Virus record (IMG/VR): IMGVR_UViG_3300027522_000041 | Span: 1-23,483 of that record | Reading direction: 5' to 3' (one strand) | From: a virus | Length of the DNA: 23,483 nt | In this document: piece by piece, positions 3,448 to 22,100 of the stretch | How the letters are laid out: each line of letters begins with the position of its first letter | Numbering within the stretch: the first letter of the stretch is position 1 | The notes under the pieces: generated by a model | The model's database searches: none | Told to the model about the DNA's origin: nothing | What the model saw: only the letters and a program-made list of their open reading frames with translations | Program-made: the position numbers and the translations under genes

Positions 3448-6400
3448 TTATTTAAGATTAGAATTGTTAACCGTAATTACAATTCCGTTAATAGTTATTA
3501 CTGATTCCACTTCGACAGTCTTTCCAGACTCTGCATTACTTACAGGAAGTTGACATTGTCTACAATAATTTTGTACAAAATTAATAAATTTACCTAAGTA
3601 GTTCTTACTGTGAGGCTTAGTTGGAGGCTCTTCGCATAGAACCCATCCAGGCCATACTCCAGGAGCATACTTAATATAAGGAAGATCTGGCAAGGCCATT
3701 CCAGTGTACACAGAACTTGAAGTGCTGAACACCTCTAATTGAGTACCTGATACATGTAAACTATCACTAGACTCTAGATACTTCAAAGTGTAAAATTTTT
3801 CTCTGGTTGTCCCAGAAACCTCAGCACTGTAATTATACTTGTACGTTTCTCCCACTTTGTATCGCCTAGACCCAGACCCTATAATTCCTAATGACAAATG
3901 CTCTACAATCGGAAGAGTGTTTGCAGCTTTTGCTTTACATGTTTTAAATTCTCCAGTACTAGGAGTAGCAGGGTCTGCACAATTGTATATACAATCTAAG
4001 CCTTTTTTACTCATAAGGTATTCTACCAGTATAAGTTTCCACGCATCTCTTGTCACACAATCTGATTTACCAGTTATAGTGTTTATAAATGCGTTTGTAC
4101 CAGCAGTACCAATACACTTTCTAATAACTTGTAGCTGCTGCTCTGTGTTGGCAGGCATGCAGAATGCAGGAGAATATAGATTATCTATAAATCCATACTT
4201 ACAAGGGTTACATTGTTCCCCATTCGCTCCATTTTGAGTAGACGGATCTGTACATGGGAGGGACGCAAACTCGTTATAATTGTTTGCTTCTGAATCTGTA
4301 CATCCGTAATCAGCGCATAAGCTTTGATTACACGACCCATTACCAGTTGCAGGGTCTATAGAAGAATCGTATGTACCCGAAGCTGGATCACAGCACCCGC
4401 AAGCTCCACCATCTCCTAGAGCCCTTGCGCCTGATGCACTAATGTTAAGATTAAACCCACCGGACACATCGTCCATTCCACTAAATTCTCCTGAATTAAA
4501 TAACGCAGTTAATTCGCCGTCAATATCTGTGATATGACATACACAGGCTCCTGAGTAAATCCCACTGTTTACAAGTGGTTGATCTCCTGAGAGTATATAT
4601 ATTGTATATAAGCCTGCATCTATATTTGAAACTAGAAAAGAAGTACCCCCGCCTGTCTGTGTGGACACAATGGTTACCCCATTATCTATACCTTGCGTAC
4701 TTAAAAAGTTACCGTCATCAATCACACTACTAAATCCTAAGTAGTTAGTCCCTGAAAGCTGCACATTATCGCCTTCATCAATTCCTACCGTATTATTAGT
4801 GTTAACAAATCTAAAACTAACAGGACCACTGTATGATGTATTTGAAATTGTAAAAGACCCACTGCTAGTTCCAGTTCCAGCACATGTGTCTGGAGGAATT
4901 TGACTAACTATGCTCCAATTATTAAATGAATGACAATTCTCCTCTACCTCGTAGTAGCAGGTCCCATCATTTGTGTTTGCAGAAGGTTCGTAGTTACACG
5001 CTGATGCATTTGTACAGCCATTAACTACTAACTCACTGCAAGTCCCATCATCTTCGGTAGCGGAAGGGTCATAGTTCATAAACGTAGGATCTGTACATCC
5101 TAGTGACTGCGTAGTAATACATGCAGTTGCTACAGAGCCAGTTGGAAATATTTCATCACCATATTCAGGATACGTTTGTGTGAATTCATAAGATACTTCA
5201 CTGTATTCTATATATGTAGGATCTGTACACCCACAAGGGCTTCCATAATTTCCAGTTAGAGAAGTCCAATTCCCAGCCCCATCAATAGCGGGGAATCCAC
5301 CTACATACCCAGCACATGTACCATCGTCCACTGAAGCAGTTGAATCATAATTACATGCAATAGGATCTGTACATCCCGGATATAGATAGTCAAACGCAGA
5401 CTCACACTCTTGACATAAATTCTCTCCTGTCAGATAGTCTCCTAAACCTCCCGATTCATTAACTTCCACAATACTAAACACTTGCGGTCCATTGGGAAGA
5501 AGAGTTATATTACAGATGTCCATAAGCCCATTATCTCCAGATATTTCAATATGTAGAGTCCCCAGCTGTGTGCCAACGTTAGAATTTATACTAGAAACAG
5601 TTGTACCAAAAGAAGTTGTCTCTTGGAAATTATAGATTCCATTCAATCCTTCGTCCTCATCCTGCGCAAGATGTATTGCAGTTTGGGTATCAGAGTATGA
5701 CCACTCAGTTTGGTCGGGGCTCACTAGGACAGTGTTCGCCACAGTAGCGCCTGTACTTTGATTTATAGTATAATATGTTGTAAAATAGCTAAAATTAGAA
5801 ATATAAACCCCTATTGGAATATAATTTAAGTTTAAAACCCTTTGACAGTACTCGTATAAAATAGATGTCTGTAAAAAAGAACTAGCGGTAGCCTGTAAAC
5901 TCCAAGCAATGTTTGTGTAAGCTTGGAGTGTCGGACTAGTTACGTTCCCAAGTTGGTATGTAAAGTACATTTTAAACTCACAAGCTTCCATTGCCTCAGT
6001 ATTCTGATATGCAAGGGTCCAAGTAAACATGTCATCAACCGTAGTCTGTAACGTTTCAGATGACGCAGGTGTACCGTAGCAGCTGCTTGGGTTGGTGTCA
6101 TAAAAAAGGCTATAAGTATCAGCGCCTATGTAATTAAAGGCTGTAGGATCATTACAACCAATTTTTAGTACTTGTACTATTAAATATGAAGCACACCCCT
6201 CTAATTCATGTGTACTATTACTATCCACATAACTTATCTTGTAGATGTAAGCGCCTCCAGGTAGGTTTGCGGTCAATCCGCCTGTGATAGTTGTTGTTGA
6301 TGCGTATGTAGTAGTTGTAGGGGTTGCCTCAGAAGTCCCTAAACTCCAATATAAAACTGAATTATATGGATCGGCACTAACTTGATCATATAGGGCGTCC

Positions 6401-7980
6401 GCGGAAGCGTTAGTGACAAATAGGGTTTTTCTTTCAAGTTTTATTACCCCTCCACTGCCATCAATCTCCACAGAGTCATCAAGGTTAAAGGAGTAATCCG
6501 CAGAAGTAGTATTATCTACTATAGTAGCAAAACTTACATTTAGTGTAAAAGACCCATCATTATTAGTACTTGTCGCATGCTGTAAGCTAGTAGAGTTTAG
6601 ATTGAATGCCCTCGTAGGGTCAGAGATCTCAACGTCGTGTATCTTTATAATATTAACTGCGTCAGTTGTATTATCATTAGTATTAGTATGTAACACTCCT
6701 GATGTGTTATGGCACCACCTACACACATCAGCTTCGCCTACTCCTTCTGCCAAGTAGTTTACTGCAGATGCAATGTGGCAATTTACAGAAGCTTGCGCCT
6801 CAAGGGTAACTATTCCCGAAACAGAGGCAGTCTCCACAAGTCCGTTGGCGTCAGTAACTGAAAACGTATACTGCTGTGTAGGTAGTGTAGTACCGCTTAG
6901 GTTAGTTATTTGTAAGGAAGTGTTACTAGTATTAGTAGCATCAAAGGCACTATTACTGCAGGTAGTATCTGAAGGTGGGCATGTAAAATTAAGATCGTAC
7001 GGAGGTGTACCACCTGACCAACTCAGATCTATATACCCACTACTAGCAACTCCTTCCGGAGATTGAAAATCATCAACATCTACGACAAAAAAAGCATCAT
7101 CTGCATTATCATATGTACAACAGATAGATTGCTGCACTAAAGTATAAATGTCTGATGCCGAATTTGCAGCAGATTGGTTGGCAAAATTATTAATTGAATT
7201 AGTTTCCGTACATCCCGTAGGCCACGGAGAAGCTAGATAGTAGTTATTAGCATTTGGGTCTCCACAAACTTTTAATACAGGTAATTGAGGATCAAATTCA
7301 GGTCCCCCCTTAATTGTAGTTACTACTAAGACTGATCCTCCAGTCCCACCAGTTCCATTCTGTGGAGCTTTCCCCATTCCAAATTCCCCTATAGACCCTG
7401 TAAATGATCTAGTGGATGATGTTTTTGGAGCAAACCCAATGTTCTTATCCCCATACTGATTTAGCAGTTCTGGGTTTATGTCAATTAAAGAAGTCTTACT
7501 ATTTGTAATAAAGTAATCCTTACTGTTAACATATATGTAATTACGCGCACTAAATCCTTTATTAGAGGTAACAGATATAGAATAGGCGTAAATATTTTTA
7601 GTTGGGGTAGGAGTAAATTTTACAGAATATATAAGATCGGACGAGTTAGAAACTGCGTCCGAATATAAATAAGTAATATCATCTAAAGATATTCGTTCAG
7701 TTCCCTGCGAGAGATCGTCAAACCCTATAGTAAGTGTTATGGTATTACTTTTAGAAGCCTTTCTATTTAGAATATTTAAAGGGATGGCTATTTCAGTTCT
7801 TCTAACATTATCTCTACTTGACGTAGTTGCTGTATAGCCGCTACTTTTTACAGTAGAATTTTCGTAACTTATCTCAAATCCCGTATGGGATGAAACACCT
7901 ATTCCTTCCTTTGAGAATACATTTAAGATTACAGTTTCATTATGTACTAGTGCCGTTACAGCTGTAAATTGATAAGCCAA
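3448..7980 (-). CDS. Giant cysteine-repeat tail fibre/adhesin (1510 aa)
   Basis: This is the largest gene here. Residues 1-235 form a probable virion-attachment head ending in a Gly-rich hinge (NGTGGTGGS). About 318-392 resembles a SprB repeat (LSWSGGTPPYDLNF, then YTFSVTDANG), known from Bacteroidota gliding adhesins. From about residue 238 onwards, six to eight copies of a Cys motif of the form GCTDPxAxNYxxxAxxDDGTC occur, best preserved near 4956-5027, 5035-5103 and 5310-5383 and degenerate near 4250, 5220, 6140, 7200 and 7250. Such motifs are typical of secreted proteins of marine Bacteroidota; paired Cys suggest disulphide- or metal-stabilised modules outside the cell. The C-terminal 250 residues are again Cys-containing and unrecognised. 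The only available start is TTG at 7980 (next in-frame Met is about 200 codons in), and the frame is continuous with the upstream 200-aa gene apart from one TAA. Likely a host-binding fibre; enzymatic activity is not visible. Confidence 0.8.
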   Translation of the reverse strand: MAYQFTAVTALVHNETVILNVFSKEGIGVSSHTGFEISYENSTVKSSGYTATTSSRDNVRRTEIAIPLNILNRKASKSNTITLTIGFDDLSQGTERISLDDITYLYSDAVSNSSDLIYSVKFTPTPTKNIYAYSISVTSNKGFSARNYIYVNSKDYFITNSKTSLIDINPELLNQYGDKNIGFAPKTSSTRSFTGSIGEFGMGKAPQNGTGGTGGSVLVVTTIKGGPEFDPQLPVLKVCGDPNANNYYLASPWPTGCTETNSINNFANQSAANSASDIYTLVQQSICCTYDNADDAFFVVDVDDFQSPEGVASSGYIDLSWSGGTPPYDLNFTCPPSDTTCSNSAFDATNTSNTSLQITNLSGTTLPTQQYTFSVTDANGLVETASVSGIVTLEAQASVNCHIASAVNYLAEGVGEADVCRWCHNTSGVLHTNTNDNTTDAVNIIKIHDVEISDPTRAFNLNSTSLQHATSTNNDGSFTLNVSFATIVDNTTSADYSFNLDDSVEIDGSGGVIKLERKTLFVTNASADALYDQVSADPYNSVLYWSLGTSEATPTTTTYASTTTITGGLTANLPGGAYIYKISYVDSNSTHELEGCASYLIVQVLKIGCNDPTAFNYIGADTYSLFYDTNPSSCYGTPASSETLQTTVDDMFTWTLAYQNTEAMEACEFKMYFTYQLGNVTSPTLQAYTNIAWSLQATASSFLQTSILYEYCQRVLNLNYIPIGVYISNFSYFTTYYTINQSTGATVANTVLVSPDQTEWSYSDTQTAIHLAQDEDEGLNGIYNFQETTSFGTTVSSINSNVGTQLGTLHIEISGDNGLMDICNITLLPNGPQVFSIVEVNESGGLGDYLTGENLCQECESAFDYLYPGCTDPIACNYDSTASVDDGTCAGYVGGFPAIDGAGNWTSLTGNYGSPCGCTDPTYIEYSEVSYEFTQTYPEYGDEIFPTGSVATACITTQSLGCTDPTFMNYDPSATEDDGTCSELVVNGCTNASACNYEPSANTNDGTCYYEVEENCHSFNNWSIVSQIPPDTCAGTGTSSGSFTISNTSYSGPVSFRFVNTNNTVGIDEGDNVQLSGTNYLGFSSVIDDGNFLSTQGIDNGVTIVSTQTGGGTSFLVSNIDAGLYTIYILSGDQPLVNSGIYSGACVCHITDIDGELTALFNSGEFSGMDDVSGGFNLNISASGARALGDGGACGCCDPASGTYDSSIDPATGNGSCNQSLCADYGCTDSEANNYNEFASLPCTDPSTQNGANGEQCNPCKYGFIDNLYSPAFCMPANTEQQLQVIRKCIGTAGTNAFINTITGKSDCVTRDAWKLILVEYLMSKKGLDCIYNCADPATPSTGEFKTCKAKAANTLPIVEHLSLGIIGSGSRRYKVGETYKYNYSAEVSGTTREKFYTLKYLESSDSLHVSGTQLEVFSTSSSVYTGMALPDLPYIKYAPGVWPGWVLCEEPPTKPHSKNYLGKFINFVQNYCRQCQLPVSNAESGKTVEVESVITINGIVITVNNSNLK
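4250..5385 (-). repeat. Tandem-like cysteine motif repeats (GCTDPxAxNY…DDGTC)
   Basis: Five copies lie in this interval: near 4250-4308 (YGCTDSEANNYNEF), 4956-5027 (NGCTNASACNYEPSANTNDG), 5035-5103 (LGCTDPTFMNYDPSATEDDG), 5200-5240 (CGCTDPTYIEYSE) and 5310-5383 (PGCTDPIACNYDSTASVDDG). At DNA level they share the plus-strand core gatctgtacaycc (for example at 5088-5100 and 5363-5375). Degenerate relatives lie outside at about 6120-6162 and 7180-7272. Confidence 0.8.
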
Positions 7981-10047: not shown

Positions 10048-11787
10048 TTATTCATTTTTACCTAACTCATTTAAATGAGTCTTATAGCGGGGATCTGAAA
10101 TCCCTTCTAAGATACCGCTTACTGTCATTGCAACGATCTCTTCATGAGTATGTTGCGGTAAGTCACAATTTATATTTAAACTGTAACTCACAGTTGCAGG
10201 TTTTCTTAAGTACTTTAATTTTACGCTGTATGGAAGAACAGATACTAAATCTGAAGAACTCATACTTACTTTTTTAATTAGAGTATATACAAATATAGAA
10301 TTATTATCGAACATACCTAAAATTCTATCATCTGACGGCTTATTAAAAGGATCTTTAAGTAATCCTAAAACATCATCATGTTGAACATATGTAATTGCCT
10401 TAGATATACCAGGAAATTCTTCTCCTAGCTGTCCTACAGCTGAATACAAACTAGAATCTACCGACCAGTTATCACCAACTAGCCATCTTTTCAGTCCGGC
10501 CGTTTCTGTTGAATCAACGGACCCATCATTTTGAAGTATAAGTTTAGACGTGATATTAAAGTCAGTTAGACCTGTACTTTCCATAGCTGAGTTAGCATAA
10601 AAATAACTCCACTCTGGCTCGTCGAAATAATACCCTACAGTCTCAGAAATTATTGTGTCTCCCGTATCCAAATCAACTATAGTTCTTATAGAGTCATAGC
10701 TATAATTTAGAGTGTCCTGTATTGTAAGGTACGATGTAAAATCTACTGCATTCTGTGACCCAGTTGTGTTTGCAATAATGGCACCCGTATTTAAATCAAC
10801 AGAATTACCTTCAGTAAGTAGTGTGTCTGCAATTAAGCCTGCAGCCTCTGCAGTGAGTATATTTCCCCAAACATCTAAATCTAACTCTACTGTAAATTTC
10901 TCAGGAACTACCACCCCATCATATTCTTCGTAGTACACTGATACACCCTCAGCAACTGTATTTAAAATACTAGTTATTATATATTGTTGGTATTCTAAAT
11001 TTGGGTCTAGTACAATATTAAGTACTTTTCCATTAACAGTCACTGTCTCAGTAAACTCCGCTGTAGGGGCACCTAAAGATCCGGATATAATAAATTCATT
11101 TGGGGTATTACCATATCCATTGGTATCACTTGCAGTGTTTCCTATATTATCCAGAAATCCGGTATTATCATAATCCACACTCCAGACACTCTTACTGAAT
11201 GTAGCTCCATTTCCAATTTCAAAGATAGAAGAAATATTTCCTGGATCTACATCTGTAACGTCAGTGGCAACACTAGCGCCACCTAAAATATCTACATCAG
11301 CTCTCCACCCAACAAGTACGCCATTACGACCGTACAATTTCAAATCTTCAAGCATAAATGTAAATGTAGCTCTTTCGCTTGTACGTGTAGATAGTTCAAA
11401 TCTAACATCATTCTCACAGCTAGCGTTCTGCAGTACATTGCAGTAACTATTTATATGGTATAAGTAATTAGCAGGAATAGTAAACTTATCTACGTATAGA
11501 AAGTCTACTTTACCAAAAGTTTTCCTGTTACTTAAAATTCTACGTTCTTGGAAGTATACATACTCCTCCGAAGAAGATACGAGACTACGTAAGTCATCAA
11601 TGCGCTTCTGAGATTCCTCAAATCCTTTACGGTAAATATTATTTTTACCATATTTAAGATTAACAAAGCGCATTATAGACTTATTTAATTCCATGTCTAT
11701 TTCCTGCGAAAGTAAACTGTCAGCCTGGAGTGAATTAATCTTATCCACTCCCTGCTGGACAGCAATATGCATATTATTAATATTCAT
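10048..11787 (-). CDS. Probable head-tail connector/ring protein (579 aa)
   Basis: The N-terminus (MNINNMHIAVQQGVDKINSL, ADSLLSQEIDMELNKSIMRF, FEESQKRIDDLRSLV) and the C-terminus (LPYSVKLKYLRKPATVSYSL, CDLPQHTHEEIVAMTVSGIL, DPRYKTHLNELG) resemble a neck or connector-type structural protein that I have seen in Bacteroidota phages, placed after the capsid gene; this is recognition from pattern, not a search. Between them, from about residue 165 to 460, is a long acidic, beta-rich segment (Asp/Thr/Ser/Ile) with no recognised motif, which may be an insertion domain exposed on the virion. It follows the 269-aa gene by 15 bases and precedes the 312-aa gene by 19. Role: ring or adaptor joining portal and tail (inference). 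Starts at ATG; no Shine-Dalgarno. Confidence 0.7.
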   Translation of the reverse strand: MNINNMHIAVQQGVDKINSLQADSLLSQEIDMELNKSIMRFVNLKYGKNNIYRKGFEESQKRIDDLRSLVSSSEEYVYFQERRILSNRKTFGKVDFLYVDKFTIPANYLYHINSYCNVLQNASCENDVRFELSTRTSERATFTFMLEDLKLYGRNGVLVGWRADVDILGGASVATDVTDVDPGNISSIFEIGNGATFSKSVWSVDYDNTGFLDNIGNTASDTNGYGNTPNEFIISGSLGAPTAEFTETVTVNGKVLNIVLDPNLEYQQYIITSILNTVAEGVSVYYEEYDGVVVPEKFTVELDLDVWGNILTAEAAGLIADTLLTEGNSVDLNTGAIIANTTGSQNAVDFTSYLTIQDTLNYSYDSIRTIVDLDTGDTIISETVGYYFDEPEWSYFYANSAMESTGLTDFNITSKLILQNDGSVDSTETAGLKRWLVGDNWSVDSSLYSAVGQLGEEFPGISKAITYVQHDDVLGLLKDPFNKPSDDRILGMFDNNSIFVYTLIKKVSMSSSDLVSVLPYSVKLKYLRKPATVSYSLNINCDLPQHTHEEIVAMTVSGILEGISDPRYKTHLNELGKNE

Positions 11788-12749: not shown

Positions 12750-14192
12750 TTATGAAGCCACACACGTGATGTCGATAGAAGTATCAAAACGCTTAAGCGC
12801 GATACCAGCTGTCTTCAACATGTGTACAGATGCACCATCCACGTCAGACGCTCTAGAAGAACTAGAATCAAATCCACGAGGAACTACAGAACCTGCTACG
12901 CACCATCTCATCATTTCACGACCTTTCTTAGAGATCATTTGTAGGTTACTTTGACCATCATAGTTAGATTGATCAACGAATACCATACGGTAAGACTCAA
13001 GTGAGTACCCTGTTACTGGGTGTTTTGCACGAGCTTGTGCTACAGCACCGTGATCAAACATAGGTAATTTAACTACGTTGATTACGTGACCATCCATATG
13101 CTCATACGAATTAAAGTATCCAGATAAACCTAAGTTACGTCCAGATCCTGTGATGAAACGATTCTCTCCACCTACTTTCCAAGCACCTGCGGTAGTTGTG
13201 AAATGATTTTTAAGAGCTTCATCAAATTCACGGGCACCACCGGTACCAGTGTATAAAGTAACTTGCTTATTAGCAGTGTCAGTCATTCCGTAGAATAAGT
13301 CACCAATAATATTTTTAAGTTTAGTTTCAGTCATTGTAGAATAAGTATCCTTGTTGATTACTTGTTCTAGTAAACCAGGACCTACGATTACAGGTTGACC
13401 ATTCTCATCTTTCATTTGGGTGTGCCCATTTGAATCATAAGATTTTTGACCATACCAGTAGTACATCTCACACTCTTCTTTGAAGTCAAGCATGTGTAAG
13501 TACTCTTCGTAATCCATCCACAATTTAGTTGTAGAACCACCTTTAGTTGGTAAAGAAAATTCAGCTACAAAATCTTTAGCATTACCAGACATGTGGTAAG
13601 ACTTACGAACTGTAGTTAATTTGTTACGAACTAAACCTGGAGTTTCCCAATTAGAAGCATTCCCACGAGAGAAATCAACTCCTACTGGAGCGTACATTTG
13701 CGCAAACAAAGCTCCGGCAGTAATATCTGCTACAGGCATTGCTGCAGTAGCTGCAGGGTTTACTAATTGTAAAGTATATACCCAGTCAGTACCCTTTGAT
13801 TCAGGTGCTTTCATGATACGAGCTTGTACACCCGATTGAGATACTAATACGTAAGGAAATACAAAGTGCTTATCAGGGAAAGAGACCTCAAAAGTTGATC
13901 CTCCTACTCCAATGTTACTGCCTGTGCTAGTTGCTGCTACTGGACGAGTTCTCAATCGTTGTGTTGCCACACGATACTCATACTCTAATCGGTCAATTGA
14001 CTTAGCGTTACCAACACCTTCAGTTAAGAAAGATAGTGGAAAACGTTTATCATCTTTACCTGATAAATGAGTAATGATTGGAGATAGTTCAGCAGGCTTA
14101 GACAACAACGCGTTTGCAAGACTGTTCGAGTCAGTCATTTGCGAATCGTTATAAAACGTTTTTTGAACGCTTATATTTGTTCCATTTGCCAT
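12750..14192 (-). CDS. Probable major capsid protein (480 aa)
   Basis: The call rests on context: a 480-aa soluble protein directly downstream of an acidic scaffold-type gene, following portal and terminase, and ending at a strong hairpin as often seen for the most expressed virion gene. The size fits HK97-fold capsid proteins. The N-terminal part (residues 1-60: TFYNDSQMTDSNSLANALLS, PIITHLSGKDDKRFPLSFLT) could be the N-arm. Further stretches are LRTRPVAATSTGSN, FVFPYVLVSQSG, DFVAEFSLPTKGGSTTKLWM, MEDYEEYLHML-like acidic helices, and DGHVINVVKLPMFDHG near the C-terminal third. No cleavage site is certain. The start is ATG after a TTTTAAAATAGATAAAAA leader. It could in principle be another head protein, but no better candidate exists in the window. 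Confidence 0.78.
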   Translation of the reverse strand: MANGTNISVQKTFYNDSQMTDSNSLANALLSKPAELSPIITHLSGKDDKRFPLSFLTEGVGNAKSIDRLEYEYRVATQRLRTRPVAATSTGSNIGVGGSTFEVSFPDKHFVFPYVLVSQSGVQARIMKAPESKGTDWVYTLQLVNPAATAAMPVADITAGALFAQMYAPVGVDFSRGNASNWETPGLVRNKLTTVRKSYHMSGNAKDFVAEFSLPTKGGSTTKLWMDYEEYLHMLDFKEECEMYYWYGQKSYDSNGHTQMKDENGQPVIVGPGLLEQVINKDTYSTMTETKLKNIIGDLFYGMTDTANKQVTLYTGTGGAREFDEALKNHFTTTAGAWKVGGENRFITGSGRNLGLSGYFNSYEHMDGHVINVVKLPMFDHGAVAQARAKHPVTGYSLESYRMVFVDQSNYDGQSNLQMISKKGREMMRWCVAGSVVPRGFDSSSSRASDVDGASVHMLKTAGIALKRFDTSIDITCVAS

Positions 14193-14242: not shown

Positions 14243-15313
14243 CTAAGTTAATAAATCGAGACTTAGTTCATCAAAATCAACGTTTGTCTTTCTTCTGGAT
14301 GCTTTATCAGCACTCTTAAGAGATTTGCCAGTTCTAGATATTTTGTCTTTAAGTGATTTTGCACTTACTGTTTTAGCTTTAGTATTTATGATTTTATCCA
14401 AATCAAATCCTCTATACATGAGGTAGTCCATAGCTAACTTAACATCTAATTCGGCATCTTTATGATCCAAATCTCGTTGTGTTTGACCTTCTTTAGTCAC
14501 GGGTTTAGAGATATATTCAAAAAATTTCTTTTTATCTCTAGCTGGTAAAGTTATTCCTGCAAGTTCGGTAGACTCATCAATTGTTTTATTTAAATCACCC
14601 CAAAACTTTTCTTGCTCTTGGTACGCTTCCTGTTGTTGTGCTTTCTGCTTAACAACTAGTTCTTCTCTTGAACTTGCTTGAACTTTAATTAAAGCGTCTT
14701 TTGCTCTTGATGCTTTATCAAACAGTTTACCACTGTCTTCGTAGTCCTCAAGAATTTCATCTATGAATTCCTTATCATGACCTTTAACATTAAAGTATTC
14801 TGCTAATACAGTTTTTTGCATTCCAACATCATCTTTAGAGATGCTCAATTCAGTATAGTCATTAGTAGCTCCAAACGTTTCCATAAATTGTTTAGAATTC
14901 CCACCAGCCATAGTGTATTCTAAATGTTTTTTAATTATAGGAAACTTTTCAAACAAACCTTCAAGTTGATCTTCAGCCATTTTACCTGCTGCGTCCTTTG
15001 TAAGAGCAATTAAGCCTTCACTAGTATCTTCGTAATCTCCTTCAAGGTCGTATCCCAGCTTAGCTAGTATTTCAGAAACAACAGAATCATCCTCAACAGG
15101 TTCTTCTTCTTCTTTGTCTTCTTCTACTAGTTTGTCCTCTTCTGGTACAACGTCGTCTTCTTTTGGGTCTTCTATTTCAAGTTCGTCTTGAATTACCTCT
15201 TCTACTACTTCTTCTTCAACACTATCTTCTATAGCATCTAACGATACACCTTCTCCTGCAATTACGTCATCAAAGGTTATATCGTCTAATTGTATTTTTC
15301 CTGGGTCAGTCAT
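14243..15313 (-). CDS. Putative capsid scaffolding protein, acidic (356 aa)
   Basis: The first 85 residues are extremely acidic (EEEVVEEVIQDELEIEDPKE and EEDKEEEEPVEDDSVVSE). They are followed by helical segments (ILAKLGYDLEGDYED, EDQLEGLFEKFPIIKKHLEY), a likely coiled coil (ASSREELVVKQKAQQQEAYQ to about residue 245) and a basic C-terminus (KSLKDKISRTGKSLKSADKA). This charge pattern, with an acidic N-terminus, helical middle and basic tail next to the capsid gene, is typical of scaffolds, whose basic tail contacts capsid subunits. It lies 50 bases before the capsid gene and after the modular peptidase protein. It has no recognisable protease motif, so maturation cleavage would need another enzyme. 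ATG start at 15313. Confidence 0.7.
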   Translation of the reverse strand: MTDPGKIQLDDITFDDVIAGEGVSLDAIEDSVEEEVVEEVIQDELEIEDPKEDDVVPEEDKLVEEDKEEEEPVEDDSVVSEILAKLGYDLEGDYEDTSEGLIALTKDAAGKMAEDQLEGLFEKFPIIKKHLEYTMAGGNSKQFMETFGATNDYTELSISKDDVGMQKTVLAEYFNVKGHDKEFIDEILEDYEDSGKLFDKASRAKDALIKVQASSREELVVKQKAQQQEAYQEQEKFWGDLNKTIDESTELAGITLPARDKKKFFEYISKPVTKEGQTQRDLDHKDAELDVKLAMDYLMYRGFDLDKIINTKAKTVSAKSLKDKISRTGKSLKSADKASRRKTNVDFDELSLDLLT

Positions 15314-15398: not shown

Positions 15399-17699
15399 TT
15401 ATTCCCCTATATATCTATAGTACACCTTCCCTATTGCTTTTTCATTAATAGGATTCTTACTGTTTTTCTGAAGCTCCGCAGTTGTAGGTTCATTCTTTTT
15501 ATGCCAAGGTTTAGAGGAGTATCCGTCATTATAGTACTTATCACCCCCAGCAGTTATCCCCATGTGACTATAATTTCTATCTGCATCAGATCCTTTGTAA
15601 AATTGAACTATATCGCCTGGAGTTTGTTGCCCTTCTGGTACAAAATCATACCCATGAGATTTATAGTTACTAGCAAACTTGTCATTATCCTGCTCTAACC
15701 TCCCATCCCATTTACCTGACTCTCTCAGTATCTCTGAGGTAGATGACACACAAGTATTACCATAACAGATAGGAGTTCCTCCCGGAGATTTAAACTGTGC
15801 GCCAAATGCTAGTGGGCTAGCATACTCTATACCCTTTTGGACTGCAATAGCCGCTGCTTTATACTGCATAGGTATATTTGAGAGAAGCTTACTCCAAGCA
15901 GAGTTCGGCTTTTCACCATACGCTTCTGGAAACCATGACTGGCTCAGTCTACTAAAATCTCTTTTGTTATCTGCTGCAGTTTGTGAATTCTGAATTACAA
16001 TATTATCATCAAACCCACCTTTCTGATATTTACCTTTAAATCCTCCAGTCTTTTGTTTTTTATTTAAATCTTTTGTATTATCTCCTGGCACATTACCTCT
16101 TACGTTCCGTACCATTTCAAGCGTACCCGCAACTAAAGCGTCAGCGGCCTGCCTAGCAGGTTTTCCTTTTGATAGCGCGGCTGGCACCATAGGGAGTGCA
16201 GCGAGAGTACTTAATAACGCATCAGTGTACTCGCCTTTTGCGTAATCTTTATCTGCTTGTTTTGCGTACTTAGCCCAAGCAAATGGGTTTATATTATCAA
16301 GAACATAGTCATCAATGATGTTTCTGTTTGTGGAATTTATAGGGATACTGTGAGGCATGTCCTGATTTCTAACACTGTACCCAAATGCAGTCATAGGACT
16401 TGCAGCATAATCAGTCAACTTTTCACCCCAGGAAGGCTCTTTATACGCCATAGACCTATTCGATGAATTTGGCGTTGATGAAGTTAGTTTTTGCCCTTGT
16501 AAATCTAAAACATCCTTAGAATAATTATGTACTGATGTATTATCAGATACTGAAGATAAATCTTCGTACGGATCAAACCCACCTTTCTGTTTATAAAAAG
16601 CTGACATGTTTTTTATAGTATTACCTGCATCTCCTATATGTGTTGAATACCCTGAACCACTGCCAGAATTCCGCATTGTTTTTACTAAATCTGGAGGCAA
16701 TATAAACTCATCAGCACGGGCTGCATTATAGGGACCATTACTAAGCTTTCTTGCCTTAGAGGTACTATTTATCATATTGAATGACTCCGCAGTTGACTTA
16801 TCAGTAGTTATATTAATCAATCTTCTCGGATCGCCAGGCGCTAAATAAGCTGCTTGCCCCTCAAGCCTAGGTAAATTTGTATTACGTTTAGTATTATTTA
16901 CATAGAATTCATTTGCACTATTTGAAAACCAATTCCCATCCTCATAGTTTTTAAAACTCTTTGAGGTTACGTTTGCATCTTCTATTCTACTTAATCTAAC
17001 TGCATCTTTTTTTGGAATTATTTTAACTCCATCCTTTGTAAATGCTGAAACTCCTTTTGGGAACATAGCTTTTGCGCCCGACCCAAAAGTTTTCAAAGCT
17101 TTTCCATACGGAAATAAAGCTTCAAAAGTTAAATGTGAGGCGTCTGCATCAGGTATATTCATCCCATGGCTATTTAACCACATCTCACTAGTTTTATTCG
17201 TCTCATACTCCGCCTGAAAGTCCATATTAGCTTCCATTTCTGGAGTTATTGCATTAGGATTTGGTTTTGTATAATTTACATTAGTACTTTCAGATACTGA
17301 AGATAATTTTTCAAAAGGGTCAAACCCACCTTTCTGAAAACTTTTGCTGCGTAGAGAGCCTTTAAACTCTTCAAGATCAAACCCGCCATTTTTATAGTCT
17401 GCTGGTGTTTCTATAACTGTACCTTTGTCTTCTCCCATAGGAAGATTACCTACTCCAGGAGGAACATTCTCATAACTCCTAACTAAGCTACCCTGTTTAT
17501 CAACCTTTTTAATGTCAATAGGATAATCCATGTCCATAGTATTAAAGCTCCCAGTAGATTCAGGAAAAACCATTGAAGTCCCTTCAGGTTGATTACTCAA
17601 CCCTTCCTTCTGCTGTTCAGGAGTTTCTGCAACTTTTGCTTGTTGCATCAAGTCAGTCATAGGCACCTTAGTGGCTATTGACTGCTTTAACATGTCCAT
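15399..17699 (-). CDS. Modular DUF192 / possible ADP-ribosyltransferase / cysteine-peptidase protein with GGF linkers
   Basis: Residues are counted from an upstream TTG (17714); I chose ATG 17699, since the TTG overlaps the portal stop (TTGA) and is a weaker start. Residues about 22-108 match DUF192 (PF02643)-type spacing: VAETPEQQKEGLSN, TSMVFPESTGSFNTMDMDYP, IDIKKVDKQGSLV, VIETPADY. Then come GGF motifs (109-131). About 200-345 resembles ADP-ribosyltransferase-like phage domains (VRLSRIEDAN, DGNWFSNSANEF, RADEFILPPDLV; low confidence). Another GGF motif (376-382) precedes an unknown domain (430-520: SWGEKLTDYAASPMTAFGYS, INPFAWAKYAKQADKDYA). Two GGF motifs (556-568) precede a C-terminal NlpC/P60- or CHAP-like cysteine peptidase (candidate Cys655 in CYGNTCVSS, candidate His717 in YSHMGI, TPGDIVQFYKG between them). 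Placed between portal and scaffold, it may be an internal 'polyvalent' virion protein, a lysin, or the maturation protease (inference). Confidence 0.8.
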   Translation of the reverse strand: MDMLKQSIATKVPMTDLMQQAKVAETPEQQKEGLSNQPEGTSMVFPESTGSFNTMDMDYPIDIKKVDKQGSLVRSYENVPPGVGNLPMGEDKGTVIETPADYKNGGFDLEEFKGSLRSKSFQKGGFDPFEKLSSVSESTNVNYTKPNPNAITPEMEANMDFQAEYETNKTSEMWLNSHGMNIPDADASHLTFEALFPYGKALKTFGSGAKAMFPKGVSAFTKDGVKIIPKKDAVRLSRIEDANVTSKSFKNYEDGNWFSNSANEFYVNNTKRNTNLPRLEGQAAYLAPGDPRRLINITTDKSTAESFNMINSTSKARKLSNGPYNAARADEFILPPDLVKTMRNSGSGSGYSTHIGDAGNTIKNMSAFYKQKGGFDPYEDLSSVSDNTSVHNYSKDVLDLQGQKLTSSTPNSSNRSMAYKEPSWGEKLTDYAASPMTAFGYSVRNQDMPHSIPINSTNRNIIDDYVLDNINPFAWAKYAKQADKDYAKGEYTDALLSTLAALPMVPAALSKGKPARQAADALVAGTLEMVRNVRGNVPGDNTKDLNKKQKTGGFKGKYQKGGFDDNIVIQNSQTAADNKRDFSRLSQSWFPEAYGEKPNSAWSKLLSNIPMQYKAAAIAVQKGIEYASPLAFGAQFKSPGGTPICYGNTCVSSTSEILRESGKWDGRLEQDNDKFASNYKSHGYDFVPEGQQTPGDIVQFYKGSDADRNYSHMGITAGGDKYYNDGYSSKPWHKKNEPTTAELQKNSKNPINEKAIGKVYYRYIGE
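16009..17391 (-). repeat. Dispersed QKGGF-encoding repeat within the modular protein gene
   Basis: The 17-base plus-strand sequence tcaaacccacctttctg occurs exactly at 16009-16025, 16573-16589 and 17320-17336, and a diverged copy (tcaaacccgccattt) at 17377-17391. A further GGF coded by other bases is near 16040. On the minus strand it encodes QKGGFD. Two copies (at about 17320 and 16573) extend into a longer protein repeat, DP[F/Y]E[K/D]LSSVS with similar following residues. The copies flank predicted domain boundaries. Confidence 0.85.
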
Positions 17700-17710
17700 T
17701 GGATTTAAAC

Positions 17711-20059
17711 TCAATTTTCGCTAGATTTAGATTTATCTTTTGATTGTCTTTCTTGTGAAGCTAAGGATTCTCTATTCTTCCTTTCACCGGATTGTCTATC
17801 GGCTGCAGACTGTCTTTCTCGTGACCTAGAGTCCTCTCTCTTGAGACTTTCATCGTTCCGCTTAGATCTACTACCCTCGATCGCTTGAGAGGCCTGTACG
17901 TCGACCTGACGCTCTTTAACGTTTAAATCTCCTTCCTGCTTATCAACTTGGGCATCCAGTTTCATCATTTCAACCTTAGCACGGATCATTGCAACTTCAA
18001 TATCAGTCTCACGATCCTTTTCCTTATTCATATTTTCATTTTCTGCCTCAGCTTGTTGCTGTTGAAGAAGAGCTTGTTGCATTTCTTGTTCAGCTTGTTG
18101 TTGTGATTGCTCTAATTCTTGTAGAGATTTCTCAGCTGATGATATTTTACCTTTAATGTCTGTGAAGCTTTCCGCATCGAACATCTCCGCGATAGTAGAA
18201 GCAGGTACACCATTTTGAATCATAGATTGAGACAGTTGCTTAATAGCATCTAACTTATCTTGATCTTTACCAGAGTCTGATACAAATATTCCGTACTCAG
18301 ATTCCATATGCTCCATAGATTCTAAATCTAGGAACTCTGTAACACCGTCAGCCATAACATACATAGCCTTTTTACCATTAATCCAAGCTTCCTTAGAATA
18401 ATCTACTAATGCTTGTAAATCTTTTTGCTCTAACCTTCCAAATTTGCGAAATAGATCTTCTGTAATATGAGAAGACTGTACAATAGCTTGTTGAGAAGTA
18501 GCTTTACCTTCATAACTACCAACTTGTCCTTGTCTTTGTCTATTTACACCAGATAATTTTTCCCATTCCTCCATGATAGAGTTAAGAAGAACAATATACT
18601 GCTCAATAGTCTTAATAGACATATCAAGTACAGATTGATGCTGTGGAGAAAGTTGTACACCTTCTTTATTGTAATCTACCCACGCAACACCCGTACCTTC
18701 TACATAGTACATAAATTTATCCATGTCCCATTTTTTTGGAATCATGTTAATATCAAATTGTACAATAATATCTTTACTTCTAGCAATTGCTAGTTCAAGT
18801 CTATATTTATATATATTATAATTCAATTGGTAAGGAATACCAAGGGATACTAATGAAATATTTCTCGCATTTCTGTCTGAGTACTTTCTACCGTTTATAG
18901 GAAGCTTACATAGAGAAGGATTATCTAAAGAAACTCTTTGATTAGAGATTGGTTTCATTTTTACATAAATATCACCATCAATTCTAGTTCCTTCCATTAC
19001 TTCATTTACCCACATCCAAGTTAAGTTAGCTCCTTGCTCTTTAAGCTCAATTGGCATTTTGAATAATTCATCTACTTCTATTTCTTCTATTGTGCCTGTA
19101 GTAGGATCTGTAAACTCTAAAAAACCAATACGTTTTCTAGACTTCCAGTAAACATTTACAACTTCTATCAATCTACTTCTATGTGCATTTTCATCTGAAG
19201 ATGCACTCTCAGGTCTAAACGCTAAGTATGAATGTAAGTCGTGATTTTCAGGATTTTCTAGTTTTAAAACCTGCTCAGGAGTAAGTTCGTCGTAGTAGTG
19301 ATCTATTATTGTAGATGCATGCACAAACTTACGTACAAGGGCCCAATCGCCATCTTCTACAAACTCTAAATCTGGATCTTTGTCGTAGTCTACATCTATA
19401 GGGTTTAGTATATCATAAAAAGGTTCATTACCTCTCACACCTCTGTGAGTATACACTTCTCCAGTAATTAAAAAATCAAACCAAGCTTTATTAAGCTTTT
19501 CATAGATTTCTTCGCTATACATAATATAGTTTAACGCTCGTTGCCCATGTACAGCTCTTGCATCTACATAAGACTTTTCAAATTGTTCAAGTATGTTTTC
19601 AGGAAGCTCTACTTCTTCAGTAGGAACGCCTGTTTCCATTCCCTGCTCATTAAGCTTATTAATAAAACTCTGTTCTAAGTTTTTATAAATAAGCTGTTGC
19701 TTTTGTGTTTCTTTATTAGAAACAGTATCCGCATTCTTTACAGTAACAGTATAATTAAGAGGTCTTTTAGACTTTTCTCCTAATAGGAGATCAATTATAG
19801 GTTTAATGATAGGGTAGTTACGCATTTTCGAAGGAAAATTCTTTCTAGCTTTACCATACGGTTTTAGTACATACCCATAATCTGACTCTTCAATTACACC
19901 GTTGTAATAGTCATATAAAGATCGTAAATGATCTTTACGTTCACTTGTTCCGTGTCCAGATATATTTATAAATGCTTCAACACATTCTTCTTTCCACTTT
20001 TTAGTCTTTTTACTAAGTGGTATACGCTGTTGTGGTATGTTATCTTCTCCTTTATACAT
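17711..20059 (-). CDS. Portal protein (about 782 aa) with coiled-coil and charged C-terminal tail
   Basis: I chose ATG 20059 over an upstream in-frame TTG at 20068; residue numbers count from the TTG. The portal assignment rests on IIKPIIDLLLGEKSKRPL (about 87-103), the helix pair around KAWFDFLITGEVYTHRG (about 194-210), NPIDVDYDKDPDLEFVEDGD (222-241) and a long helical region (QYIVLLNSIMEEWEKLSGV to EGKATSQQAIVQSSH), all typical of portals of Bacteroidota phages and dodecameric head vertices. The gene is flanked by TerL upstream and the scaffold/capsid block downstream. Residues about 644-732 form a Gln/Glu-rich coiled coil (QQQAEQEMQQALLQQQQAEA), and 733-785 is a striking Arg/Ser/Glu/Lys tail (DSRSRERQSAADRQSGER). 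The tail may be internal and bind DNA or the ejected protein (inference). Confidence 0.85.
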   Translation of the reverse strand: MYKGEDNIPQQRIPLSKKTKKWKEECVEAFINISGHGTSERKDHLRSLYDYYNGVIEESDYGYVLKPYGKARKNFPSKMRNYPIIKPIIDLLLGEKSKRPLNYTVTVKNADTVSNKETQKQQLIYKNLEQSFINKLNEQGMETGVPTEEVELPENILEQFEKSYVDARAVHGQRALNYIMYSEEIYEKLNKAWFDFLITGEVYTHRGVRGNEPFYDILNPIDVDYDKDPDLEFVEDGDWALVRKFVHASTIIDHYYDELTPEQVLKLENPENHDLHSYLAFRPESASSDENAHRSRLIEVVNVYWKSRKRIGFLEFTDPTTGTIEEIEVDELFKMPIELKEQGANLTWMWVNEVMEGTRIDGDIYVKMKPISNQRVSLDNPSLCKLPINGRKYSDRNARNISLVSLGIPYQLNYNIYKYRLELAIARSKDIIVQFDINMIPKKWDMDKFMYYVEGTGVAWVDYNKEGVQLSPQHQSVLDMSIKTIEQYIVLLNSIMEEWEKLSGVNRQRQGQVGSYEGKATSQQAIVQSSHITEDLFRKFGRLEQKDLQALVDYSKEAWINGKKAMYVMADGVTEFLDLESMEHMESEYGIFVSDSGKDQDKLDAIKQLSQSMIQNGVPASTIAEMFDAESFTDIKGKISSAEKSLQELEQSQQQAEQEMQQALLQQQQAEAENENMNKEKDRETDIEVAMIRAKVEMMKLDAQVDKQEGDLNVKERQVDVQASQAIEGSRSKRNDESLKREDSRSRERQSAADRQSGERKNRESLASQERQSKDKSKSSEN

Positions 20060-20135
20060 AATTTTCAAAAATACAAATTAATACTTCATGCCTTGCAGTG
20101 CTTATACATTTTAAACTATTCCTTATAATATAGCA

Positions 20136-22100
20136 CTAATAATAATTTTGGTCAAACCACTTATTTGCTGATCCATCTTCCAATACTTCCCTAACTTCTG
20201 AATTGTACATTTCTCTAGTGTGGTACATGCCAATCATTAAAGCCATTACCCTGTCAAAATTTCCTCTATGATTAAACTTTATTAATTCTTGTAAAAGCGC
20301 TAAGTCATATATCTTATGCATATTTAATACTTGAGAACCATCTTCATTTACATGTCTAACGGTATTTAACCAATCTCTAATATACAATTCACCTTGACGT
20401 TTTCGAGGTTCTGTAGTATGCATACCAAACTGTCTTTTTACTGTTTTACTTCTAAGGTTCTTTTTATCAAGCATTTCAAATTCTTCTTGAAGCCTGTGTA
20501 ATTTTCTATGCCGCCTAGCGTAAGCAATAACTTCACCACGGTCATTCTCAAAACCTATTTTTGCATTGTAATAGTCTGAAAGCATAAACATATTTCTGTT
20601 AAACTCATCTTGACTATGTGGTCTTCCAACATAAGAAGCTACAATCATATCATCTGGCCGGGATATATTATTAACCCTTTTAAGAACATAGCATGCTCCT
20701 AAAGATGATGAATCTGCAGATTGATTTTGCCCATATGGATCATGGCATATTAAATATAGATTAGCAGGAACTTGTTGACTTTCATTTTTATATGGAGACT
20801 CATATATTACAGTACACCCATTTAAGTTATCTTCTTTTCTGTGAGGGTATCTTAAAATAGGTCTAGCATCTCCTTCAAGTTTAAACTGTATTTTATTTTC
20901 TTTTCCGTGATACAAAGATCCAGCCGTCCCTATTGTATGTAACTTGTTGACTTTTACATTATTATACTGTTCTTGTAAAGATGCTATATCAAATAGATTT
21001 GCTGAAATCTGAAGAGTAGCTTCTCTAGGATTCATTGGATGCTCTGCTATGTACTGATCAAGAGCTTTAGGATCATTTGTTCCCTTTTTCTTTATTCTGT
21101 TTTCTTCTTCAAAAGCCACTGCAGTATCTCTACTAGAGTTACCATCTTTATCTATAAAGCCTTCTAGGTTTTCATAAATAGGAACAAAGTGTCCACAGTA
21201 TGTACCAGCCGCTCCTGCATCCCAAATATTAGAAAAAGATAAGCAATCATACGAATGTGGGTTGTAGAATAACTCTTCCATCCCTTCAAAATCAGCTCCT
21301 TCTGTACCACCAGTACCAAAAGCTACCATAGTACCAAGAGTGTTTGCACCTTGACGCATTGTAGGCATTGATACTTCCCAAGCTTTTAACAGCCCTGGGA
21401 ATGCACCAGCTTCTTCAAAAAATATAAGTTCACCAGCTTTCCCCCTTACTTTATCTGGATTATCTTTTAGAGACACACCCATAATCATAGACTTCATGCC
21501 TAATTCAACATCTGCACCGTTTACATTCTTTTTGTAACCAGACATCTTGTTCATTTCTCTATCCTTAAGACGAGGTTGAGTCCATGCTGTATTATTATCC
21601 ACAAAAGATAGGATCTCCCAGGCCTTAGACAACAGCCCATCACCAATAAGGTATTCCTTCTGTCCTGCAAACACATAATTCTTACTATTACGAACTAAGA
21701 AGTAATTTCTAGCAAGCATTGCTGCGGCTTTATATGAATAACCTTTACGACGTGCTTTTAACACTGTCATATGTTTATTAGATTTTCTACATTCATCTAT
21801 TGCTGTGAAATATTTAAAATCTCCATCATAAAAAGCAGGAAATGTACGTTCACGTTTAGCTAGTACAGTACCATCAGGTAGGATCTCTTCTACAGACCTA
21901 TCAATAGGGCAGAAATTTAAATAAAAATAGTGGTTACCTGTAATAGTAGTAGCACCTACAGTATAACCGTATAAACACTTTTGTTTTTGGTCATCCCAAT
22001 ACTCATAATAATCTTTAGTCCCAGGCAAGGCTCTAGTGTATACTCCATACTCCATGTACAATAGAGCAGTCTTCCTAAATGCATCAGTGTCTTTAAACAT
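20136..22100 (-). CDS. terL: Terminase large subunit (654 aa)
   Basis: TerL packages DNA by ATP hydrolysis and cuts concatemers. Visible motifs: a Walker-A-like loop at about 114-124 (LKARRKGYSYK), unusual in lacking the classic GKS/T but in the right place; Walker B at 224-231 (ELIFFEEAG); a coupling stretch at about 256-265 (GTMVAFGTGG). The nuclease domain has Asp454 (ICHDPYG), Glu518/Asp520 (IGFENDRGEVIAYAR) and Asp616 (FDRVMALMIGMYH), the expected RNase-H-like acidic triad. Length fits the family. It overlaps the upstream 80-aa gene by 8 bases (ATGTTTAA) and is followed by the portal after a roughly 75-base spacer. The best-supported gene in the window; whether packaging is headful or at cos sites cannot be told here. 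Confidence 0.95.
   Translation of the reverse strand: MFKDTDAFRKTALLYMEYGVYTRALPGTKDYYEYWDDQKQKCLYGYTVGATTITGNHYFYLNFCPIDRSVEEILPDGTVLAKRERTFPAFYDGDFKYFTAIDECRKSNKHMTVLKARRKGYSYKAAAMLARNYFLVRNSKNYVFAGQKEYLIGDGLLSKAWEILSFVDNNTAWTQPRLKDREMNKMSGYKKNVNGADVELGMKSMIMGVSLKDNPDKVRGKAGELIFFEEAGAFPGLLKAWEVSMPTMRQGANTLGTMVAFGTGGTEGADFEGMEELFYNPHSYDCLSFSNIWDAGAAGTYCGHFVPIYENLEGFIDKDGNSSRDTAVAFEEENRIKKKGTNDPKALDQYIAEHPMNPREATLQISANLFDIASLQEQYNNVKVNKLHTIGTAGSLYHGKENKIQFKLEGDARPILRYPHRKEDNLNGCTVIYESPYKNESQQVPANLYLICHDPYGQNQSADSSSLGACYVLKRVNNISRPDDMIVASYVGRPHSQDEFNRNMFMLSDYYNAKIGFENDRGEVIAYARRHRKLHRLQEEFEMLDKKNLRSKTVKRQFGMHTTEPRKRQGELYIRDWLNTVRHVNEDGSQVLNMHKIYDLALLQELIKFNHRGNFDRVMALMIGMYHTREMYNSEVREVLEDGSANKWFDQNYY

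Follow-up and report, generated by a model that had tools for sequence, protein, structure and literature searches.

A DUF192-anchored protein with interchangeable modules between the portal and scaffold genes of aquatic crAss-like phages, most likely a customisable virion cargo

The gene between the portal gene and the presumed scaffold gene of a crAss-like phage, here called X, codes for a protein with an N-terminal anchor that is followed by a payload. Related phages with nearly identical portals have different payloads. X is most likely a customisable cargo of aquatic crAss-like phages, riding in the particle and aiding host entry. We infer that it is an accessory virion cargo with interchangeable modules, which is packaged and ejected, and assign a probability of about 0.65 to this reading.

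The window, an IMG/VR virus record of 23,483 bases, represents a crAss-like phage, as indicated by a Pfam match to Crass_capsid and by portal and terminase PHROGs that lead to crAss-like records. Its lineage probably infects hosts of the Flavobacteriia type. The genes terminase, portal, X, presumed scaffold and major capsid protein follow each other on the minus strand:

20136..22100, minus strand: terminase large subunit (PHROG 6681, E 2.6e-136)
17711..20068, minus strand: portal protein, upstream neighbour of X (PHROG 6547, E 3.9e-128)
15399..17714, minus strand: gene X, anchor and payload, 771 aa from TTG 17714 or 766 aa from ATG 17699
14243..15313, minus strand: presumed scaffold, acidic coiled protein preceding the capsid gene (by position and composition; no family match)
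12750..14192, minus strand: crassvirus major capsid protein (Pfam Crass_capsid, E 5.3e-84)

The preliminary description had placed a modular protein between portal and scaffold. This is indeed a real open frame in a crAss-like head operon: the X frame is open on the minus strand, and the plus strand across the region has many stops. The coordinates given there, 15399-17699, fit the ATG form of X, and the strand (minus), which had been absent, is now added. The TTG start overlaps the portal stop (TTGA), and both TTGA and ATG 17699 are kept in the relatives L005, L006 and L069. The gap between X and the scaffold gene is 85 bp. Elsewhere in the window (3448-7980, minus strand) a 1510-aa protein is encoded that contains repeats of a Cys-rich GCTDP.A.NY...DDGTC unit and is probably a tail or surface-exposed protein.

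The N-terminal part of X comprises two features:

17643-17699, minus strand: short helical N-terminus ahead of DUF192
17397..17642, minus strand: DUF192-like domain, residues 20-101 (766-aa numbering), Pfam PF02643

DUF192 (COG1430, PF02643) is a widespread family of unknown function. The window copy matched PF02643 with E 3.4e-6 and 27.5 bits, just above the gathering cut-off of 27, and a Pfam match to DUF192 at E<=0.01 was present in 57 of the 87 X proteins scanned (best 8.4e-9). An AlphaFold2 (AF2) model of the homologous, payload-free 143-aa protein of L011 (61 sequences in the alignment, pLDDT 81.5) matched 3m7a (Foldseek E 1e-4; VIA Z 9.7) and 3pjy (Foldseek E 2e-3; VIA Z 10.5), both of which we take to be DUF192 structures; the next VIA row reached only Z 6.4. 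Since the Pfam matches in the relatives agree with the position of the L011 model on DUF192 structures, the earlier proposal of a DUF192-like domain is valid at the family level: the N-terminus of X is a DUF192 domain, with the fold predicted for the L011 homologue rather than for the window copy. A scan of 84,980 genomes of bacteria and archaea did not find the anchor, and there was therefore no sign of prophages. The literature searched, which covered few subscription journals, held no joint mention of "DUF192" with "phage" and "virion". The anchor of X gives the DUF192 family a possible phage role.

Three further blocks follow the anchor in the window protein:

16584..17267, minus strand: block 2, possible ADP-ribosyltransferase (by motif order), residues about 145-372
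16977-16997, minus strand: candidate motif R..E of block 2
16920-16937, minus strand: candidate motif GNWFSN of block 2
16695-16715, minus strand: candidate motif DEFILPP of block 2
16050..16574, minus strand: block 3, helical, residues 376-550, a singleton among the relatives by BLAST
16212-16238, minus strand: hydrophobic-hairpin pattern KGEYTDALL of block 3
15402..16010, minus strand: block 4, CHAP/NlpC-like cysteine peptidase, residues 564-766, common to L005, L006 and L069
15750-15752, minus strand: candidate catalytic Cys650 of block 4, in a stretch invariant in 4 homologues
15564-15566, minus strand: candidate catalytic His712 of block 4, in a stretch invariant in 4 homologues

Block 2 had been described as ADP-ribosyltransferase-like. 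Its R, WFS and E motifs do occur in the order of ADP-ribosyltransferases, but neither Pfam, which gave no match, nor hhalign, which was convincing only against the direct homologue L160, lent support to the assignment. The block is conserved only in L005 and L006 (R, E and WF are kept in both) and has a dN/dS of about 0.37. It is a possible, unconfirmed ADP-ribosyltransferase. When the ART-like and middle blocks of the window were compared by hhalign with the other modules, nothing convincing was found. The hydrophobic-hairpin pattern of block 3 was present in 9 of 88 X proteins, the window and 8 others, with 10 matches compared to 0.01 expected from shuffles, and in several relatives it directly precedes ART- or kinase-like segments. 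Foldseek matches of the middle block to MIT/TPR were set aside as common helical bundles.

The C-terminal cysteine peptidase of the preliminary description was retained with a reservation. C..HMGI is invariant in four homologues and block 4 resembles Pfam CHAP, but with E 5.6e-4 below the cut-off, and the NlpC/P60 (C40) matches by Foldseek were weak and came from a poor model. This moderate evidence points to a putative CHAP/NlpC cysteine peptidase at the C-terminus. The AF2 model of full-length X from the window (40 sequences) had a pLDDT of 43.6 and was too poor for use. Homologues of X, of its CHAP block or of its ART block were not found in 50,697 phage records.

The blocks between the GGF motifs do not form one invariant domain. 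L005 and L006 have the anchor, the ART-like block and the CHAP block in common with the window; their second block is different, and the middle block of the window is missing. L069 shares only the anchor and the CHAP block. Since these relatives share only some of the window blocks, the modules can be regarded as separable, as had been proposed.

Scans with terminase, anchor and portal resulted in 223 loci, with overlaps between several that share a contig; 134 loci could be read on both sides, at the portal and at the scaffold/capsid. The slot between portal and scaffold nearly always contains one gene and sometimes two, and it was occupied in all but three IMG/VR contigs with both flanks readable. 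L180, L181 and L186 lack X: their portal and scaffold genes are intact, with about 86 bp between them. In L028 an extra gene (10293-11534, its start also seen in L032 and L034) lies between portal and X. It begins with MCKPC...KY.SGG, has CxxC and GG motifs and a candidate Cys/His peptidase-like stretch, and may be a second cargo. In L041 (2281-4493) the portal gene is found in two frames (354 and 392 aa), due to a sequencing error or a real split.

The 88 non-redundant X proteins have a median length of 534 aa, the shortest being 119 aa and the longest 1553 aa. The anchor comes first in 82 of them. Behind it stand up to six interchangeable modules, or none, and many relatives end in a basic GG-containing tail. 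Cutting the X proteins at the motif and clustering by BLAST gave ~78 segment families in 73 distinct orders, numbers which are approximate because single-linkage clustering is rough. The portals of L053 and L055 are 100% identical over 768 aa, and their X proteins have 911 and 879 aa with different module order. Likewise L037, L044 and L073, with portals of 98.4-99.0% identity, have X proteins of 672, 1369 and 149 aa. Synonymous divergence between L005 and L069 was 0.38 for the anchor, 0.13 for the second block and 0.40 for the CHAP block, the kind of unevenness that exchange would produce. Purifying selection (dN/dS about 0.1-0.5) acts on every block tested. A recurrent module, PSNLRDTDTTTYNLRGAYEAG...HPT, was seen in X of L008, L010, L090, L005 and L069; its dS of 0.13 between L005 and L069 suggests recent exchange.

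The stretch from the portal gene to the capsid gene is a common place for the gene of a capsid maturation protease. The gene position and the peptidase-like domain would agree with X being such a protease, or another essential assembly factor, but peptidase modules are missing in many relatives with close capsids (the capsids of the window and of the anchor-only L063 are 97% identical), and X is gone entirely in L180, L181 and L186. The protease reading was rejected as contradicted by these loci, and a role in assembly is very improbable.

Five GGF motifs occur in the window protein, all at block borders:

17379..17387, minus strand: GGF junction 1 (YKNGGF), anchor end, residue 105
17322..17330, minus strand: GGF junction 2 (FQKGGFDPFEKLSSVS), repeated linker copy 1, residue 124
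16575..16583, minus strand: GGF junction 3 (KQKGGFDPYEDLSSVS), repeated linker copy 2, residue 373
16038..16046, minus strand: GGF junction 4 (KTGGF), residue 552
16011..16019, minus strand: GGF junction 5 (KYQKGGF), residue 561

QKGGF, which had been reported for every junction, is present at three only; the others have NGGF or TGGF. A scan of 15 window genes found a GGF-type motif in X alone and in none of the 14 others. In the X proteins GG[FYW] occurs 155 times compared to 42.6 times in shuffles (maximum 60 in 200 shuffles), an enrichment of 3.6-fold. The consensus of the seam is Y-[KQ]-K-G-G-[YF]-K, with the general form Y-[KQ]-x-G-G-[FY]. Outside the anchor, 95 of 454 homology borders were located within 15 aa of a motif versus 53.5 +/- 6.8 at random positions, an excess that is indicative only, because the borders are not independent. 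In 52 of the 88 X proteins GG was also present close to the C-terminus, within the final 16 residues (12 expected), often in a C-terminal tail GG-[YI]-R-[RK]-K-C-[KR]-Y-G-C-W that stands behind quite different modules. The DNA of the motif is varied, with 57 distinct sequences among 71 sites; therefore the seam is kept as protein. As a general rule, a DNA-level recombination site at the motif is ruled out by this diversity, although the window still has one repeated linker: the linkers at junctions 2 and 3 are a repeat with 58/90 identity of the DNA.

This near-repeat, and the fact that all data are from assembled contigs, raise the question of whether part of the length variation of X is an artefact of metagenome assembly, in which repeated linkers cause false joins or collapses. 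The same architectures were recovered from independent samples (for example L099, L103, L104 and L105; L009 and L010; L073 and L100), frames are open over up to 1553 codons, and the motif DNA is diverse. We regard an assembly artefact as highly unlikely.

The payloads of the relatives include a range of enzymes. Pfam detected an SLT transglycosylase in 5 X proteins, besides Phage_lysozyme2, DUF2272, PG_binding_1, reprolysin-like, kinase-like and CHAP domains, and X of L152 matched ART-PolyVal (PF18760, E 3e-14). HExxH is present in 14 of 88 X proteins. The PHROGs matched were endolysin, lytic tail protein and "internal virion protein with endolysin domain". The idea of a polyvalent protein fits the zincins, SLT, lysozyme and Pfam ART-PolyVal found in the slot of the relatives. 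Several domains per chain are in line with it, too; the ADP-ribosyltransferase of the window itself is a candidate only. In the payload of L170 (2688-4787) we noted a protein-kinase-like HMDMHSGNVLV...DP motif (ABC1, E 0.0037). By eye, X of L041, L045, L066 and L139 showed caspase/CHAT-like GH...C-Y-[LMF]-G-[ST]-C patterns, and X of L132, L139, L151, L152, L157, L185 and L099 showed Gly/aromatic-rich repeated strands, often C-terminal, that resemble small outer-membrane barrels.

Peptidases in many variants (HExxH, and CHAP in the window), together with the enrichment of GG[FYW] and its proximity to module borders, would also be in line with a polyprotein that is cut at the GGF seams by its own or another peptidase during head assembly to give separate proteins. 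We consider this improbable: a cut at the motif at the extreme C-terminus frees only a short tail, most motif-bearing variants are without a recognised peptidase, and the payload-free, anchor-only forms of L011, L063 and L073 still have the motif.

Zincin modules of L066, L045, L041, L072, L143 and L132 matched gp041 of phi4:1, a Cellulophaga phage (Lightbulbvirus), with E 1e-20 to 2e-10, and a module of L045 matched gp040 of the same phage (47% over 75 aa, E 1.5e-11). The two genes are adjacent in the structural block of phi4:1, and their products are annotated as virion proteins from MS/MS. gp041 carries a Phage_lysozyme2 domain; gp040 contains the [FY]Q-x-GG motif four times and ends in a GG tail. 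Like X, this pair has the homologous zincin, an SPDKN...MKGV module and [FY]Q-x-GG motifs. Unlike X, it is encoded by two adjacent genes in a tail/structural block and has no DUF192 anchor by Pfam. A BFVD match to an 895-aa phi4:1 protein (the length of gp040) was weak and was discounted as proof of DUF192.

The matches of modules to these MS-annotated proteins argue against X being an unpackaged late cytoplasmic or lysis-related protein that is merely sited in the head operon. Such a function would agree with some payloads falling in PHROG "endolysin" families, and no proteome for this lineage came to light. It is unlikely, however, given the slot that is fixed in all but three of the contigs with readable flanks and the short anchor-only forms without a lytic module.

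As a virion cargo, X may act as follows. The anchor, co-made with the portal from the overlapping start, would dock X to the portal or scaffold, and X would be enclosed in the capsid. The GGF linkers would be flexible, exchange-tolerant seams between modules and perhaps also binding tags. During infection X would exit through the tail, and its modules would work one after another. Those of the CHAP, lysozyme, SLT and zincin types could breach or reshape the cell wall or cut proteins, those with a hydrophobic hairpin or a barrel-like form could engage membranes, and ART or kinase-like ones could modify host proteins. In the window, the payload would consist of a possible ART, a hairpin block and a CHAP-like peptidase. 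Fast exchange of payloads would let the phages adapt their entry or counter-defence to local hosts. For the question of how crassviruses breach the envelope and overcome host defences, this single slot, in which dozens of modules can be exchanged behind an unchanging tag, supplies a list of candidate entry enzymes and effectors. The DUF192 anchor and the GG tail suggest a portable cargo-loading tag.

Virions of the crassvirus phiCrAss001 contain cargo near the portal (PMC10172136), and podovirus ejection proteins carry swappable peptidoglycan hydrolase domains (PMC8954989). T7 gp14/15/16 and the crassvirus cargo proteins gp45 and gp46 resemble X as proposed here in being ejected, in swappable hydrolases and in packaging near the portal. 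They are core infection proteins, whereas X is naturally absent in some relatives and far more variable. The phiCrAss001 cargo proteins gp45, gp46, gp47, gp49 and gp50 come from another gene block than the slot of X, and in phi14:2 the scaffold gene follows the portal gene with nothing encoded between them. The gut Boorivirinae cr50_1, cr10_1 and cr55_1 have an HExxH-type "peptidase" in the slot of X, and cr1_1, of the genus of cr55_1, retains the N-terminus and tail with the peptidase gone. The slot, the constant N-terminus and C-terminal tail, the gain and loss of the peptidase and the GG motif in cr1_1 are as in X; the Boorivirinae protein differs by a single payload and by the lack of a detected DUF192 in cr50_1. 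The likeness is one of layout, with N-terminal helices that are at most candidate homologues of the aquatic anchor.

The domain set, which could not be matched to a described system in the preliminary description, is less isolated than it seemed there: close precedents exist in polyvalent proteins (PMC5512222) and MuF toxins (PMC5576092). Polyvalent proteins are long chains of several domains (zincin, ART, lysozyme and novel ones) in phages with portal-terminase packaging (Iyer et al. 2017, PMC5512222), and they are stated not to follow the constant-N-terminus layout of polymorphic toxins (PMC5512222); DUF192 is not mentioned in that paper. X fits this class by its predicted composition, with several unrelated domains per polypeptide in a portal-terminase phage. 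It differs in the constant N-terminal anchor, the fixed genomic slot, the extreme payload turnover and the GGF-type seams.

MuF polymorphic toxins are encoded directly downstream of portal genes in temperate phages (PMC5576092; Bxa, PMC11699363). They share with X the position immediately downstream of the portal, a constant head-associated N-terminus and exchangeable C-terminal payloads including ADP-ribosyltransferases. Unlike them, X has a DUF192 anchor and several modules in series instead of one toxin, some forms are payload-free, and the payloads lean to cell-wall enzymes and peptidases. The MuF domain (PF04233/PF06152) had no match in 87 X proteins; the window has no immunity gene after X, and the slot is nearly always single-gene in the relatives. 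By analogy of layout, X would work like MuF polymorphic toxins but is not one of them. Tentatively, and at somewhat less than even odds, we propose that lytic crassviruses possess a MuF-free, virion-borne polymorphic cargo with one loading tag, whose module strings are swapped via GGF seams at nearly the pace of strain divergence, and which would be a phage counterpart of bacterial polymorphic effectors.
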